Part shown: positions 2,254 through 36,660 of the stretch, piece after piece
Layout of the letters: each line of letters opens with the position of its first letter
How positions within the stretch are numbered: position 1 is the first letter of the stretch
Virus record (IMG/VR): IMGVR_UViG_3300037842_000302
Location: 1-40,932 of that record
Strand: one strand, 5' to 3'
DNA: 40,932 nucleotides
Origin: a virus
Notes under the pieces: generated by a model
Seen by the model: the letters and a program-made list of their open reading frames with translations, nothing else
Database searches by the model: none
Told to the model about the DNA's origin: nothing
Translations under genes and position numbers: made by a program

Positions 2254-5200
2254 TTAAATTACTCTTATTAAATAAACTACTCTCAAGTATGTAGGTACAA
2301 TACTAAAGGCAGTGCCTGAGCCAGTATTAGCACAAGACATTCCGTGTGTGTGACCGTAACTATGACTGTGATCCATGCCATGAGTATGATTCGCAGAAAA
2401 GTTTCCTGTATTACCATGATGGTGAGCGCCTGTATTACTGGTACTCGCATTACCTGATCTAGTCACAACATTTGTCCACGCATAAAAGTCATTTACAGAA
2501 TAAGTATTTCTGTGAGTGTTATGACTATGGTTTCCAGTATTACTTCCAGAATTGTGATAGTGGTTTGCACTTGTAGTACCAGTGTTGGCAGAACTCGCAT
2601 TCCCTGTAGTCGATGCTGATTGACTGCTAGTTGTGACTGTATGACTGTGAGCAGGGAGATTACCTACAGCAAGAGTTATAGTATTATTTGTTCCTGTACC
2701 CCCTGAATTTCCGTGTGAATTTCCTTGCAAGAATCTACCATCACTTAGATTGGGTGTATTTCCAGATAATGTTTGACTCCCCGGAATAGACGCACCGTCA
2801 CATAACATCCATCCTTCTGAACTTACGGCACCTGACCCCGGAAGACTATATGCACCACTAAGCTGAGATTGTACAGGAACTATTCCTCCAACTGGAACAA
2901 CTCCATAACCTGTTGCTCCTGAACCCAGTATAGGATTTTTAATATTCGTATCACCAGTTCCATGCGGCTGAATATCAATGTCTGCATTAGAAACTGATAC
3001 TATATCGTTCCCATTACAATCTAAATTTCCGCCAAGTTGAGGGGTGCTGTCATCGACTAAATTATTAAATGTGGGAGTACTTAGCTGTGCAAAACTAGAA
3101 CCATTGTGGAATTTCAATACATGATTTGTAGTATCCATCCATAAGTCCCCTTCACTAGGTGAACCCGGTTCTGAAGATGCTATTAAATATTCATTAGCAT
3201 AACGATTAACATCAGCAATACTGCCTGCTACCGTTGTAACATTAGCACTAACGCCAGCAACAGTAGTTACGTTGGTCGATATGCCTGCTACTGTAGTTAC
3301 ATTTGCACTTATCCCTGCTACTGTTGTTATGTTTGCATCATTTGTTGCTACTGTAGTGACGTTACTATCGTTTGTTGCAACTGTAGTTACGTTGGCTGAT
3401 ATACCTGCGACTGTGTTAACATTTGCAATATTATTCCCAACAATATCTACATTTACTACACTCGCTGCTACTGTATCAATCTCAGAGACTGCCTCATTAA
3501 GATCATTAGCCACAGTTTCTACTTCTGATATTGCTTCAGACAGATCATTTGCAACAACTATCACATCTGCGATGTTAGTCGCTACTGTATTAACACTTGA
3601 TATGTTTGTAGCAACAGTAGTCACATTAGCAGAAATCCCTGCTACTGTAGTCACGTTTCCACTAATCCCTGCTACCGTAGTTACATTTGCCTGAATACCT
3701 GAAACAGTATTTATGTGACCCTGTTCTGTAGTTGTTGGTTGCATCCGTCTCCAAGTTGAAGAGGTTGCATCATATACCAACATGACATCATCCGTAGTAT
3801 TAAAATATTTAACACCATCAGTTAATGCGTCACCATCATTGTTTAATGCAGGCCCATCCTTTGTGCCGTTGAAATCACCATATATGCCATAACCTGTAAA
3901 AGTAAGCGCAACCCCTGAACCAGCCGCTGGCATATTATCTGAGATTGTTACTACGCTTCCAGCGATAGATATTACATTTGGTTTTGGAGATGTGGGAATT
4001 CCTGTGCCTGTTACGACTTGCCCTACTTTTATATTGGATGTACTTACTACTGTAATAGCGGAAGCATCCTTAGCCCACGTACCGTTAGTAGTTGGGTTAG
4101 TTCCTTGAGATGCACTGTCTGCCATCTCACCTAGGTACTTATCATCAAACTTATCGAATATACGAGAGGCCGCATCTGCAGAAGCATTAGCCGCTGTTTC
4201 ACTAGCCGCCGCCGCTGTAGCTGAAGCCGCACTCTTTGCGGCATGGTGTAATGATGAATAACTAGAACCTGTTACTGCGGAATCCTCTGCCTGTACTGCC
4301 CAATCTTTTGCTGATCCAACCGCTACGGTAGTTCCTATAGCATATTCTTTTGCTGAATATTCTGCTGTATCAACGTATCCGCCTGTAGTTGTGGCCCATT
4401 CCTTTGCTGCACCCTTTAATGCAGTATCAGTAACGCCTGTACCACCTACTGACCATGCTTTTGCCGAGTGATCTGATGTTGCTCCGCTTACTCCACCATC
4501 TACCTTAGTAGCGTAATCTTTTGCAGAACCTCCTGTGCTGGCCTGAGTACCTTGAGAGTATTCCTTAGACGAGTATGACGTCCCATCTACAGTAGCACTT
4601 GTGTCTTGCGACCACTGCTTTGCAGTACCGCCTGTAGCGAATGAACCTTGTGCATACTCTTTAGCGGAAAACTCTGAGCCTGTTACTACTGCACCAGTCG
4701 TTGTCGCCCATGACTTAGAAGAACCATCTGCTTTATGAGTAGAAGTACCAGTAGCCCATTCTTTAGCGGACGCATCTGTACTTGTACTGCTTGGTGTTGT
4801 TGCTAAAGTAGCCCAATCTTTAGATGACCCAGAAGCAGCCGTAACGCCTGTACCACCTTGTGCGTATGCTTTTGAACTAAATTCTCCTGTAGAAGATACT
4901 GCACCATCTGTTTTAATTGCAAAATCTTTTGCTGATCCAGTTGTAACTGCTGATCCAGAAGCATGTTCTTTTGCTGAATATACACCAGTTTGTGCAGTAG
5001 CTATTGTGCCTTCAAAATGATTTACTACTGCTGGAGATTCAGTTGCATAGCTTTTTGATTCAAGTACATAATCTTCAGCTTTATCAATATTAATGGTTGT
5101 TACTCCAAGTGAACCTTGTGCATCAAATTTAAGAGACTTATTTGCACGGTTAGTTGCAGTAACATTTAGACTCGCTTGTGATTCAGTTGCATCAGTAGAT

Positions 5201-30078: not shown

Positions 30079-31188
30079 ATGACTATACAAACTACAAGTA
30101 CACCACAAGTAAAGTTCAATGATTTTGATGCCGCTTTAGCATATACAGCTAACAAAAGCACAGAATATATACCTATTGATTACAATTCACTTTATATGAA
30201 TAACTATTTCACGATAAATGGATTTGATTTTACAAATGACGGTATTGAATCAATCAGTAGAGCAATAGAAGTACCATCACTAGGGAAAGTATTACATACA
30301 AGTACTATAGATGATGATGATGCTCCAAATTACTTCAATTCAATAATGAACACTCAAGATTCTAAGAGAAAGCTCAAAAACAAATATCTAGTAGTCCAAG
30401 ACGGCACTATTATCGGTACTGTTGGTTCCAAGTACAAACCATATGACAATAACCAATATTTAGAAGACATCCATAAAATACTTCCCTCTGATTATAAATT
30501 TATAGATGGGAATATCGTTGGTTCTAAAATTAGAGTTAATTTCGGATCAGAATATAATTCATTCGATGTTAAAGGTAGAACTGACGATAAAATCATACCC
30601 GGAGTTCAATTAAGGTCTTCGATGGTGGGTGATACAGTCATAGGTGCTTTAGTTAGGCTTCATAGGCTTGTCTGCCTTAATGGAATGAGCATTACAGATA
30701 ATAAGTCGGATGGTCGTGCATATCACGTAGGCGACGATTTAAAGGCTAAATTGGATCTACTTATGGAACGGACTTCTTCATCTTTGAAAATGGTTCAGGA
30801 GCGTATCGATCAGTTAATCGGGATGCCGTATGTACCTAAACAAACAGCTAAATCATTAATAAAGTTAAATGCTCCATTCAAAATCCTGCCAGAGCATAAG
30901 AAACGTGGTCTCTGGTACAACCCTAAGAAGAAATACAAAGATATATCTGAACATAATAGTGCTTTAGATAGTTCAATATCTATGTTAGACCGCACACCTT
31001 TAAGAGATACATGCCCTATATCAAAAAGGATGTTTGAAAGTCCTTTTAAAGTGCCAATGATGTTTGACTTTGTTGAGTCATTTACTGAATCGGCACAAAG
31101 ATACTCCATTGAAGAGCAAAATTTAATGGAAGAAGAAGCAGGAGTTTTATCAACTCACATTTATAACAATTCTTCATTATATTGTTAG
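30079..31188 (+). CDS. DUF932-like phage/plasmid protein
   Basis: Predicted 369 residues, preceded by AATGGAGACAAA. The segment YLVVQDGTIIGTVGSKYKPYDNNQYLEDIHKIL, then VQLRSSMVGDTVIGALVRLHRLVCLNGM, follows the pattern of DUF932-type proteins found in phages and plasmids (conserved RxVCxNG near the centre). Function is not established; association with replication and recombination genes is common. The C-terminal ~100 residues are variable. It is the largest early gene before the regulatory locus and ends just before a structured RNA element. Confidence 0.6.
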   Translation: MTIQTTSTPQVKFNDFDAALAYTANKSTEYIPIDYNSLYMNNYFTINGFDFTNDGIESISRAIEVPSLGKVLHTSTIDDDDAPNYFNSIMNTQDSKRKLKNKYLVVQDGTIIGTVGSKYKPYDNNQYLEDIHKILPSDYKFIDGNIVGSKIRVNFGSEYNSFDVKGRTDDKIIPGVQLRSSMVGDTVIGALVRLHRLVCLNGMSITDNKSDGRAYHVGDDLKAKLDLLMERTSSSLKMVQERIDQLIGMPYVPKQTAKSLIKLNAPFKILPEHKKRGLWYNPKKKYKDISEHNSALDSSISMLDRTPLRDTCPISKRMFESPFKVPMMFDFVESFTESAQRYSIEEQNLMEEEAGVLSTHIYNNSSLYC

Positions 31189-33594: not shown

Positions 33595-33872
33595 GACAAT
33601 ATCCGATCTGGTGCAATATCAACTCTTGCGCATATAAGAGCAACGGAGGAAGCACAGGAAATAAAAGTTATGGCATTAAAGAACATGGAGAATGTGAAAT
33701 AGTTATAGGCACAAGCTCCAGAAATTCGCACCACTTCCTAAACCACAAGACAACGCACCGCTTGCTAGATAATGGTGATAACTCTTATCGGTTTTATGTT
33801 GATGGTGTCGTGATTAAAGAAGCAATACTAAAAAAAGGGACAAATTCAATCCATTGTAAGGAGGAAGAATGA
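33591..33872 (+). CDS. Hypothetical beta-rich protein, ATGA-coupled
   Basis: Predicted 93 residues starting in the same AAAGGAGGAAGTATGA junction type as the gene before. Contents: scattered Cys/His/Gly (CNINSCAYKS, NSHHFLNHKTTHRL), a beta-strand style end (YRFYVDGVVIKEAIL) and KEEE at the C-terminus. Not recognised. Confidence 0.5.
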   Translation: MRQYPIWCNINSCAYKSNGGSTGNKSYGIKEHGECEIVIGTSSRNSHHFLNHKTTHRLLDNGDNSYRFYVDGVVIKEAILKKGTNSIHCKEEE

Positions 33873-33895
33873 AAGTAATTATAGCGGAAATATAG
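33869..33895 (+). pseudogene. Remnant ORF of eight codons after a full start module
   Basis: The same AAGGAGGAAG-ATGA junction that couples the two genes before it starts an ORF reading MKVIIAEI and then stopping at TAG. The start signal is intact but the coding part is lost, so this is probably the stump of a deleted gene at the edge of the regulatory locus. Confidence 0.45.
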
Positions 33896-33904
33896 ACCAT
33901 TTCA

Positions 33905-33965
33905 TTGTCCTTTCCTTGTCCTTTCATTTAAGAAAATGGCGTCTATTGTCCCACTTTGTCCTTTC
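33905..33965. repeat. Iteron-like 10-bp direct repeats
   Basis: TTGTCCTTTC occurs exactly at 33905-33914, 33916-33925 and 33956-33965; a partial copy (TTGTCC) begins at 33946. Spacings of 11 and 10 bp put members of each pair on one DNA face. The block lies where rightward early transcription meets the leftward regulator gene. Candidate binding site for an initiator or repressor. Confidence 0.6.
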
Positions 33966-33971
33966 AATTGA

Positions 33972-34223: not shown

Positions 34224-34279
34224 TTGACACTTATGTATCAATTAAGTTACAGTATAGTTAAGTTAAGTTTACATTGCAA
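34224..34279. promoter_or_regulatory. Overlapping divergent promoters of the regulator pair
   Basis: Rightward: TTGACA (34224-34229), 18-nt spacer, TACAGT (34248-34253). Leftward: TTGCAA (34274-34279, read on the minus strand), 17-nt spacer, TATACT (complement of 34251-34256). The two -10 boxes overlap by three bases, so the promoters exclude each other. Between and around them are GTTAAGTTAAGTTT and a partial palindrome TTAAGTTACAG/TATAGTTAA, likely operators. Confidence 0.6.
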
Positions 34280-34327
34280 GTCAATAAGATATTAGTATAT
34301 TCAACCAATAATTACCAAATAAAACTT

Positions 34328-34513
34328 ATGAATTTACGAGATCAATGTAAGGCGTTTAACGTGCGACTAAAACCTATAGCTAGTGAGACAGGATATTCGT
34401 TACCTTATGTAGGAATGGTTGTACGAGGAGAGAGAAAGAACATTAAAATCCTCAGTGCAGTTCATCTAGCACTAGAATCCAGCAAAAAAACATACAGAAA
34501 AATGGTTGCATGA
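34328..34513 (+). CDS. Cro-like HTH DNA-binding protein
   Basis: Predicted 61 residues from ATG 34328, similar in size to Cro proteins. It contains a helix-turn-helix: IASETGYSLPYVGMVVRGERKNIKILSAVHLAL, with SLPYVGMVVRG as turn plus recognition helix. Basic ends suit DNA binding. It lies rightward of the overlapping promoters and leads the recombination/replication genes, so it may control the switch between the arms. No clear ribosome-binding site before the ATG. Its stop overlaps the next start. Confidence 0.6.
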   Translation: MNLRDQCKAFNVRLKPIASETGYSLPYVGMVVRGERKNIKILSAVHLALESSKKTYRKMVA

Positions 34514-34689
34514 GTAAGTTTTCAGAACAACAACTCAGGACACTTATACGTGAACTGTATGCTTCAGAACAAATCCAAAAGATTCAAATAGCCAGAAAAG
34601 ACTTCTTAGACAGACATTTACCTTCAGTCAAATCGTTAATTCAATGGAGAAACAAACATGAACACTCAACAAAACTTCGCAGTAAATGA
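34510..34689 (+). CDS. Small helical protein between Cro-like and exonuclease genes
   Basis: Predicted 59 residues in an ATGA overlap with the Cro-like gene. Helical and basic (SEQQLRTLIRELYASEQIQKIQIARKDFLDRHL). Overlaps the exonuclease gene by 32 nt in another frame. Not recognised; possibly a regulator or DNA-binding accessory by context. Confidence 0.5.
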   Translation: MSKFSEQQLRTLIRELYASEQIQKIQIARKDFLDRHLPSVKSLIQWRNKHEHSTKLRSK

Positions 34690-35554
34690 TTACGATAAAC
34701 GCAACAAGTTATTACTAGGATCTGATGCGCCAGTAATCCTAGACTTATTCGCATACTATAAAGACAATCCTCGCACCCCACTTACTTTGTGGGATGAAAA
34801 AGTTAATAACATCACTCCCCCTGACATAAGTAATAAGCCCAACATTATACGTGGGAACGTACTAGAACCTGTTGTACGTGATGTCCTCATTCCTATATTC
34901 CATCCTGACATTGAAGTAGTAGAAGACTTAAACACTTATTACTCACCAGACAACGACTTCATGGCATGTCATATAGATGGTCAAGTAGTTGGTAAGAAAC
35001 GACTTGCAGAGATCAAGTGTCCTGCATTCGGGCCTATGACTAATTGGAAACGTGATGGTAAGTATTACCTACCAGATTACGTCCGTGCGCAGTGCTTACA
35101 TATCTTAGCCTGTAGACCAGATATAGAAGGTATAGACGTATTTGCTTATGCAGGTATGGAAGTCATTCATTTACCTTTAGAACGTGATCAAGCAGAAGTT
35201 GATACATACGTACAGGTTGCTACTAATTTCTGGAATCATGTTAAGAACAAAACTACACCGGAGCCTATTAACAATCGTGACTTAGGTTACATAGACATAA
35301 GGAAAGAACGATTAGAAAAGTACATAGATGCTTCGGTTAATCTCAAAATTATTCTCAAAGAGCAACAGAAGAAGAAGAAACTCATTAAAATACTAACAGG
35401 TGAAGTAGATACCTTATCTTTTGAAGCAAAGAAAGAAATTGGTAATGCAAAAGGAGCAAAAGATCACGGTGAAATCATCTGTAATCTTATTAGAAGAAAC
35501 AGCAAAAGTGGGACTACATTAAGTCTTACTTTTCCATCGACTAAAGTAGCTTAA
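34658..35554 (+). CDS. exo: YqaJ/lambda-type 5'-3' exonuclease
   Basis: Predicted 298 residues. Catalytic pattern of the YqaJ viral recombinase family: RGNVLEP (G66-E70), HIDG with D107, and AEIKCPA with E118 and K120 (the D-ExK core). The enzyme degrades one strand from a DNA end and loads the annealase. Its partner Bet/RecT is the next large gene, 173 nt on. Late helical extension (residues 215-298) is Lys-rich. The gene ends 2 nt before a pseudoknot-like RNA element. Confidence 0.82.
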   Translation: MNTQQNFAVNDYDKRNKLLLGSDAPVILDLFAYYKDNPRTPLTLWDEKVNNITPPDISNKPNIIRGNVLEPVVRDVLIPIFHPDIEVVEDLNTYYSPDNDFMACHIDGQVVGKKRLAEIKCPAFGPMTNWKRDGKYYLPDYVRAQCLHILACRPDIEGIDVFAYAGMEVIHLPLERDQAEVDTYVQVATNFWNHVKNKTTPEPINNRDLGYIDIRKERLEKYIDASVNLKIILKEQQKKKKLIKILTGEVDTLSFEAKKEIGNAKGAKDHGEIICNLIRRNSKSGTTLSLTFPSTKVA

Positions 35555-35556
35555 AG

Positions 35557-35617
35557 GCTAAGCGAGTGGGTGGAACCTCGATGTTTCTCCGCAGTTTAGC
35601 AATGACTGCCTCACCCT
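35557..35617 (+). ncRNA. Candidate pseudoknotted RNA after the exonuclease gene
   Basis: Four short helices can form: GCTAA (35557-35561) with TTAGC (35596-35600); CGAG (35563-35566) with CTCG (35577-35580); GGGTG (35568-35572) with CACCC (35612-35616); GCAGT (35591-35595) with ACTGC (35605-35609). The first and third pair loop bases with outside bases, a double-pseudoknot topology. No U-tract follows. Possible 3'-end protector, regulator of bet, or chance. Confidence 0.45.
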
Positions 35618-35727
35618 TATTCATTACTTGTAAATCGATATGACTTATTGCACAAATACGAGTCTAAGATGTCTTTAAGCTACACACTTTTATTTAACTT
35701 TAATTTAACATTTAATAGAGAAATATA

Positions 35728-36660
35728 ATGGAAATGGAATTACAAACTTTAGTATTCAGTAAAGAACAAGAAGCATTAATAAAGTCTCAGATAGGGCCAA
35801 CGTTAAATAACGATGAACTATTGGTCTTTATGCATGTTGCAAAACGTGCTGGTCTTGATCCATTGGCAAAGCAGATATATGCAATTAAACGTGGTGGTAA
35901 AATGACTATACAGACTGCTATAGACGGTTTTAGAGCTATTGCAGACAGAACAGGTCAACACGTTTCAACATCAGATGCAGTCTTTGTAGAAGAGAATGGT
36001 CATATACTTAAAGCAACCATAACTGTTCAAAAAATGGCAAAGAATGGAGTTATAGGTGACTTCACTGCAAGTGCATATTTTTCAGAATATCAAGCACAAG
36101 GTACAATGTGGAATAAAATGCCTCATGCTATGATTGCTAAATGCGCAGAAGCACTAGCTCTTAGAAAGGCTTTTTCAGCACAACTCACAGGCATATATAC
36201 GAACGATGAAATGAAGCAAGCAGATAACATTGAAGATAATAACAACGATCATTTACCATCATCATCTAATAATATTAAAGAGATTAATCCTAACAAATCT
36301 TTAAAAGATAAAATGGATGCAAAGTTAGGCAATAGAATAGCTAATATTATTGATAATATAAGTGCATCAATCTTCAATGATATTGCTGATGAACATAAAG
36401 AAGGTGTACCTAATTTTATGCGTATAATATCCGATGCTAATAGAACAGTAGATGATATGCAAAAACTTCGTACATTCTGCAAATATTATGATCATGCGGA
36501 AAAGCCTAGTCAGTACGCAAATGACAACTTTCACACATGGGAACTAACATCTGCTGAAACAAATACAGTGAGAGAACATATAACCTTCCTTAAGAGCTTA
36601 TTTGATAACATTCCATTTGATAATGAGTCAACACAATTTGAATCAGAGGTTCGTATATGA
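35728..36660 (+). CDS. bet: Bet/RecT-family single-strand annealing protein
   Basis: Predicted 310 residues. The family core is clear: LLVFMHVAKRAGLDPLAKQIYAIKRGGKMTIQTAIDGFRAIADRTG, then MPHAMIAKCAEALALRKAF and LTGIYTNDEM. These match phage lambda Bet-like annealing proteins, which coat ssDNA made by the exonuclease and pair it with homologous strands. The C-terminal half is less conserved and may contact host SSB. It overlaps the next gene by 4 nt. Confidence 0.9.
   Translation: MEMELQTLVFSKEQEALIKSQIGPTLNNDELLVFMHVAKRAGLDPLAKQIYAIKRGGKMTIQTAIDGFRAIADRTGQHVSTSDAVFVEENGHILKATITVQKMAKNGVIGDFTASAYFSEYQAQGTMWNKMPHAMIAKCAEALALRKAFSAQLTGIYTNDEMKQADNIEDNNNDHLPSSSNNIKEINPNKSLKDKMDAKLGNRIANIIDNISASIFNDIADEHKEGVPNFMRIISDANRTVDDMQKLRTFCKYYDHAEKPSQYANDNFHTWELTSAETNTVREHITFLKSLFDNIPFDNESTQFESEVRI

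Follow-up and report, generated by a model that had tools for sequence, protein, structure and literature searches.

The window, i.e. the whole stretch of 40,932 nt of viral DNA analysed here, carries on its plus strand an intergenic gap whose flanking genes had been read, from the letters alone, as an exonuclease and an annealase gene, an assignment borne out by Pfam and PHROG matches. The features that delimit this gap are:

34658-35554, plus strand: upstream gene, YqaJ/RecE-like exonuclease (exo; PF09588, E=5e-11; phrog_434, E=5e-30)
35717-35722, plus strand: probable Shine-Dalgarno sequence AGAGAA of the annealase gene (assigned by position only)
35728-36660, plus strand: downstream gene, RecT-family annealase (PF03837, E=6e-28; phrog_2780, E=7e-46)

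The exo stop codon occupies 35552-35554 and is followed, as had been described, by a gap of 173 nt in which the first proposed helix starts at 35557. No promoter-like site was found in the exo-annealase gap and no terminator-like site was recognised there. A small HTH-like gene (34274-34513, MNLRDQCKAFNVRLKPIA...) lies 5' of exo and is kept in exo-type relatives.

Covariation and fold of the exo-annealase gap

Relatives, i.e. phage contigs encoding homologues of both exo and the annealase, were collected by a RecT-alignment search. Their proteins are mostly 34-40% (exo) and mostly 45-62% (RecT) identical to those of the window, and their exo-annealase gaps comprise 173-202 nt of recognisably similar sequence. 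A DNA pattern search provided further members with an exo identity of only 25-29%, and a relaxed DNA pattern added no others among the matches listed. Two genome-contig matches to an 18-base pattern were discarded, neither having a covariance-model match. The gap of the closest record (IMGVR_UViG_3300038301_000136) is 100% identical to that of the window and was therefore uninformative as a comparison.

A covariance model (R1) was seeded with seven other phages, leaving out the window, and N placeholders set the register of the loop L4 and the hairpin P5 described below. R1 matches the window at 35545-35684 (54.3 bits, E=1.6e-10), exactly the exo-annealase gap, and its best score in other viral contigs, 659 kb chosen beforehand by a DNA pattern, was 17.3 bits. 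A second match in the window (33850-33971, 17 bits, E=0.033), without the conserved joining strands, is probably due to chance; most of it falls in a stretch with few genes 5' of the HTH-like gene.

In the model-fitted alignment (18 sequences), 95.6% of the pair cells hold and double-sided changes are seen in 27 of the 39 pairs; 0 of 500 shuffles reach the observed value and slid versions are 27-45% paired. As a control for the structural fitting of this first alignment, pairs were counted again in 14 sequences aligned by sequence alone; this alignment is 83.7% paired, with double changes in 23 of the 34 pairs (0/500 shuffles). Paired columns hold 65 G-U cells against 4 A-C cells, so the folded molecule is the plus-strand RNA. 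These comparisons lead us to judge that the gap carries a real, conserved structured RNA of ~138 nt, with strong support for its being functional. A coding origin of the element was rejected, since almost every frame contains stops and lengths across the family do not differ by multiples of three; no reading frame is open across the whole RNA family.

The comparative fold is a three-way junction with a closing stem (P1), a long P2-P3-P4 arm and a hairpin (P5), and is made up as follows:

35546-35683, plus strand: whole conserved structured RNA (covariance-model match 35545-35684; covariation)
35546-35557, plus strand: P1 5' strand GUAGCUUAAAGG, pairs with 35672-35683 and contains the exo stop codon (35552-35554)
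35562-35567, plus strand: P2 5' strand GCGAGU, pairs with 35626-35631
35568-35573, plus strand: P3 5' strand GGGUGG, pairs with 35611-35616 (includes the third helix proposed earlier)
35591-35595, plus strand: P4 5' strand GCAGU, pairs with 35605-35609 (the fourth helix proposed earlier)
35599-35604, plus strand: L4 putative kissing sequence GCAAUG (CAAUG in 18/18 sequences)
35605-35609, plus strand: P4 3' strand ACUGC, pairs with 35591-35595
35611-35616, plus strand: P3 3' strand UCACCC, pairs with 35568-35573
35626-35631, plus strand: P2 3' strand ACUUGU, pairs with 35562-35567
35632-35640, plus strand: J2/5 joining strand AAAUCGAUA (near-invariant AAAUCRAUA)
35642-35645, plus strand: P5 5' strand GACU, pairs with 35661-35664
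35646-35651, plus strand: L5 putative kissing sequence UAUUGC (YAUUG in 18/18 sequences), complementary to L4
35661-35664, plus strand: P5 3' strand AGUC, pairs with 35642-35645
35665-35671, plus strand: J5/1 joining strand UAAGAUG (ACGAUG in relatives, near-invariant)
35672-35683, plus strand: P1 3' strand UCUUUAAGCUAC, pairs with 35546-35557

All five stems show double-sided changes: P1 in 9 of 12 pairs, P2 in 4 of 6 (with compensatory changes in the window itself), P3 in 4 of 6 (in relatives), P4 in 6 of 6 and P5 in the 3 pairs modelled (3/3). Between L4 and L5, a 5-bp core is kept in 18/18 sequences with one G-U, that of the window, and the sixth pair is standard in 13/18 (G-C, U-A, G-U or U-G). 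As the core CAAUG/YAUUG is otherwise invariant, covariation tests the sixth pair only, and a kissing contact between the two loops is likely, not proven. In the window, the nested part of the fold has an energy of -39.0 kcal/mol, compared with -40.2 for the unconstrained optimum.

The sequence-only reading had proposed a different fold, a double pseudoknot at 35557-35617 made of four perfect helices, all of which are present in the window (35557-35616):

35557-35561 with 35596-35600, plus strand: helix 1, GCUAA/UUAGC, perfect pairing in the window
35563-35566 with 35577-35580, plus strand: helix 2, CGAG/CUCG, perfect pairing in the window
35568-35572 with 35612-35616, plus strand: helix 3, GGGUG/CACCC, perfect pairing in the window, part of P3
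35591-35595 with 35605-35609, plus strand: helix 4, GCAGU/ACUGC, perfect pairing in the window, identical to P4

The start of this motif is correct; its last helix base is 35616, so that it stops there and not at 35617. Covariance in the exo-annealase gap of relatives, the check then suggested, separates the helices into two pairs: helices 3 and 4 are kept with compensatory changes, while helices 1 and 2 are fully paired in none of the relatives. The double pseudoknot is thus lost with its crossing helices, and GCUAA/UUAGC and CGAG/CUCG are, as judged by this comparison, chance pairings in the window; the UUAGC segment overlaps the loop GCAAUG, itself complementary to another hairpin loop. The topology had also been called rare by chance. 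Of 3000 dinucleotide-shuffled versions of the gap, 16 contain it, but so do 21 of 1360 tiles (both strands) of the same 41-kb window, and it is therefore not rare at the scale read. The single-sequence folding z-score of the region is -1.96, and the earlier observation alone would not establish an RNA. What survives is the claim of a structured functional RNA (covariation, independent covariance-model match, kept position), without the proposed topology and with a larger extent, 35546-35683, P1, P2, P5 and L4-L5 being partly or wholly beyond the coordinates first given.

Distribution and relation to known RNAs

In exo-type members, the RNA begins -9 to +13 nt relative to the exo stop, and 26-43 nt separate its end from the ATG of the annealase or annealase-position gene; in every member it is located upstream of the downstream start codon. 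The protein encoded downstream is a window-type RecT, a RecT ~28-31% identical to the window type, or a protein with no Pfam or PHROG match (L128:3733-4647, L110:10898-11902 and L123:3014-3937). The latter resemble hypothetical proteins of Campylobacter-phage records and probably represent an unannotated annealase family. The contig L132 compared with L127 or L012 has an RNA 74-80% identical, an exo 37-39% identical and an annealase 28-31% identical (80%, 39% and 31%, respectively, against L012). Since the RNA is kept while the downstream protein varies, it is not specific to one annealase.

One member departs from this arrangement. L098, a 7.9-kb contig, has no exo and its RNA ends ~103 nt before a DUF932 gene followed by a SNF2-type helicase gene. 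The RNA of L292 (IMGVR_UViG_3300030382_003271; 3849-3993, minus strand) precedes a DUF932 gene and a SNF2-type helicase, not an annealase; a weak DUF932-like gene of the window (30079-31185) does not have the RNA. In L318 (IMGVR_UViG_3300030450_001820, 3600-4300), a 10-N scaffold joins two versions of one exo-annealase junction, one with and one without an extra GCCGC/GCGGC arm in P5, an apparent strain variation. The apparent tandem RNA pair of this record was rejected as a scaffold artefact (10 N).

R1 and R2 searches of RecT phages without this exo type gave no RNA, and the RNA is absent from a phage with abutting exo-like and recT-like genes. There were no matches in the bacterial genomes searched (369 gammaproteobacterial and 398 Pseudomonadota, a set without a positive-control genome), and neither the gap nor the RNA members gave anything convincing by blastn against GenBank phages. 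Searched with Rfam 15 (4227 models), the window and 8 relatives have no match above the curated gathering threshold, and at E up to 10 only sub-threshold, meaningless matches appear, none of them to xrRNA or ribozyme models. The earlier opinion that the motif is not twister, pistol, glnA or SAM-V agrees with this search, in which no match to any of the four was obtained at E up to 10. No prior description of this RNA was found in the open papers searched, nor was leader-RNA regulation of exonuclease-annealase genes found in the literature searched.

Purine-riboswitch-type junctions (RF00167 and relatives) are P1-closed three-way junctions with conserved joining strands and paired hairpin loops, found in gene leaders. 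The element resembles them in its P1-closed three-way junction, conserved joining strands, complementary hairpin loops and leader position, and differs in having no Rfam match, a second arm broken by two internal loops, a 5-6 bp complementary run between L4 and L5 and a location in phage recombination operons. The GOLLD and ROOL ornate RNAs are structured, phage- and metagenome-associated and several hundred nt long. The element differs from them (PMC12286853) in its length of ~140 nt and in being bound to a single place in an operon. The manA and wcaG motifs (RF01745, RF01761), candidate regulatory leader RNAs of marine metagenomes and phages (PMC2864571), share with it the status of candidate regulatory RNA in a gene leader; they are located in T4-like cyanophages before metabolic genes (PMC2864571), whereas the element has no Rfam match. 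Twister, pistol, hatchet and HDV-like ribozymes also combine a compact multi-helix fold with tertiary loop contacts (putative in the element), but the topology of the element differs from that of small self-cleaving ribozymes, it has no Rfam match and no known catalytic core was seen. The most apt description of the element is, in our view, a new structured leader RNA family of a general kind already known.

Possible control of the downstream gene and competing explanations

The upstream stop codon and the downstream gene's ribosome-binding site flank the element, and we estimate at roughly 50% the probability that it is a control element of that gene, i.e. a new cis-regulatory, riboswitch-like leader. 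A cis-acting sensor would fit the leader position, the near-invariant joining strands, the L4-L5 complementarity and the persistence across exchanged genes. According to this model, the compact kissing-loop fold would act as the sensor domain and control annealase translation in a riboswitch-like manner. With P1 closed, the downstream ribosome-binding site would be free; P1 could open through the absence of a bound factor, or through ribosomes completing exo over the P1 5' strand, and the freed 3' strand could then pair near the Shine-Dalgarno sequence. Because replacement of the downstream gene leaves the RNA in place, the bound factor is probably not the annealase but a host or general phage molecule.

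Averaged over the members, the part of the RNA with the greatest complementarity to the Shine-Dalgarno region consists of J5/1 and the P1 3' strand, which is the classical place for an expression platform. This complementarity is weak, not significant per sequence and dominated by related sequences, and we therefore infer the regulatory step with evenly divided confidence. In the window itself, J3/4 (AUGUUUCUC, 35581-35589) pairs better with the Shine-Dalgarno region than J5/1 and the P1 3' strand do, 8 of its 9 bases being complementary to GAGAAAUAU (35718-35726); sequestration by J3/4 finds no support over the members, this pairing not being conserved in relatives. No obvious terminator or alternative stem was seen for the RNA element. 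Its mid-operon location would be just as compatible with a role for the upstream gene or with action after processing. A more specific proposal, which we put forward tentatively and well below the general one, is that of a new phage riboswitch class, whose kissing-loop three-way-junction aptamer would sense a host metabolite or signal and gate annealase synthesis.

Several other explanations were weighed against a riboswitch-like leader. It is rather unlikely that the element is a protein-binding operator through which a phage or host protein (exonuclease, annealase, ribosomal protein or RNase) sets the exo-to-annealase ratio or mRNA decay. Such an operator would suit the location of the element, a recombination operon of two genes whose upstream stop lies in or beside P1, and mid-operon protein-binding RNAs have precedent; the RNA is nevertheless kept whether the annealase is RecT-type or another protein, and L098, a contig without exo, has it before a DUF932 gene. 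Simple operators, moreover, seldom require joining strands this invariant. A small processed or trans-acting non-coding RNA within the operon would account for the self-contained fold with its 12-bp closing stem, and for an RNA identity uncoupled from both neighbour genes. It would not account for a constant position, after an upstream stop codon and shortly before a start codon, in a gap without a promoter-like or recognised terminator-like site, and we hold it to be quite improbable.

A multi-helix fold, invariant unpaired strands and loop-loop contact are the usual look of small ribozymes, and the element has such a fold, invariant unpaired strands and complementary loops. That it is a self-cleaving ribozyme cutting the exo-annealase mRNA is even so very improbable, given the lack of any Rfam ribozyme match at E up to 10 and of a hammerhead or HDV core sequence by eye. 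We give hardly any credit to a DNA-level element (a boundary for recombinational module exchange, or a cruciform): the operon does encode recombination proteins and the element stays when flanking genes diverge or are swapped, but the compensatory changes preserve structure and not sequence, and the 65 G-U against 4 A-C cells in paired columns speak against a DNA hairpin, which has no reason for such a preference. Finally, the notion that the double pseudoknot was accidental and that nothing functional is there, to which its unconserved exact fold, its chance occurrence elsewhere and a folding z-score of only about -2 would lend themselves, is practically eliminated for the whole element by the covariation and the covariance-model match, and holds for only 2 of the 4 helices first proposed.

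With the element, the exonuclease-annealase operon of metagenomic phages gains a structured RNA family that is well supported and missing from Rfam 15. Being short, conserved and at a fixed position before the downstream gene, the element lends itself to direct probing and to tests with reporters, and the conservation of its joining strands encourages a search for a ligand or for cleavage. If the riboswitch proposal is true, the phage would match recombination to the state of the cell.
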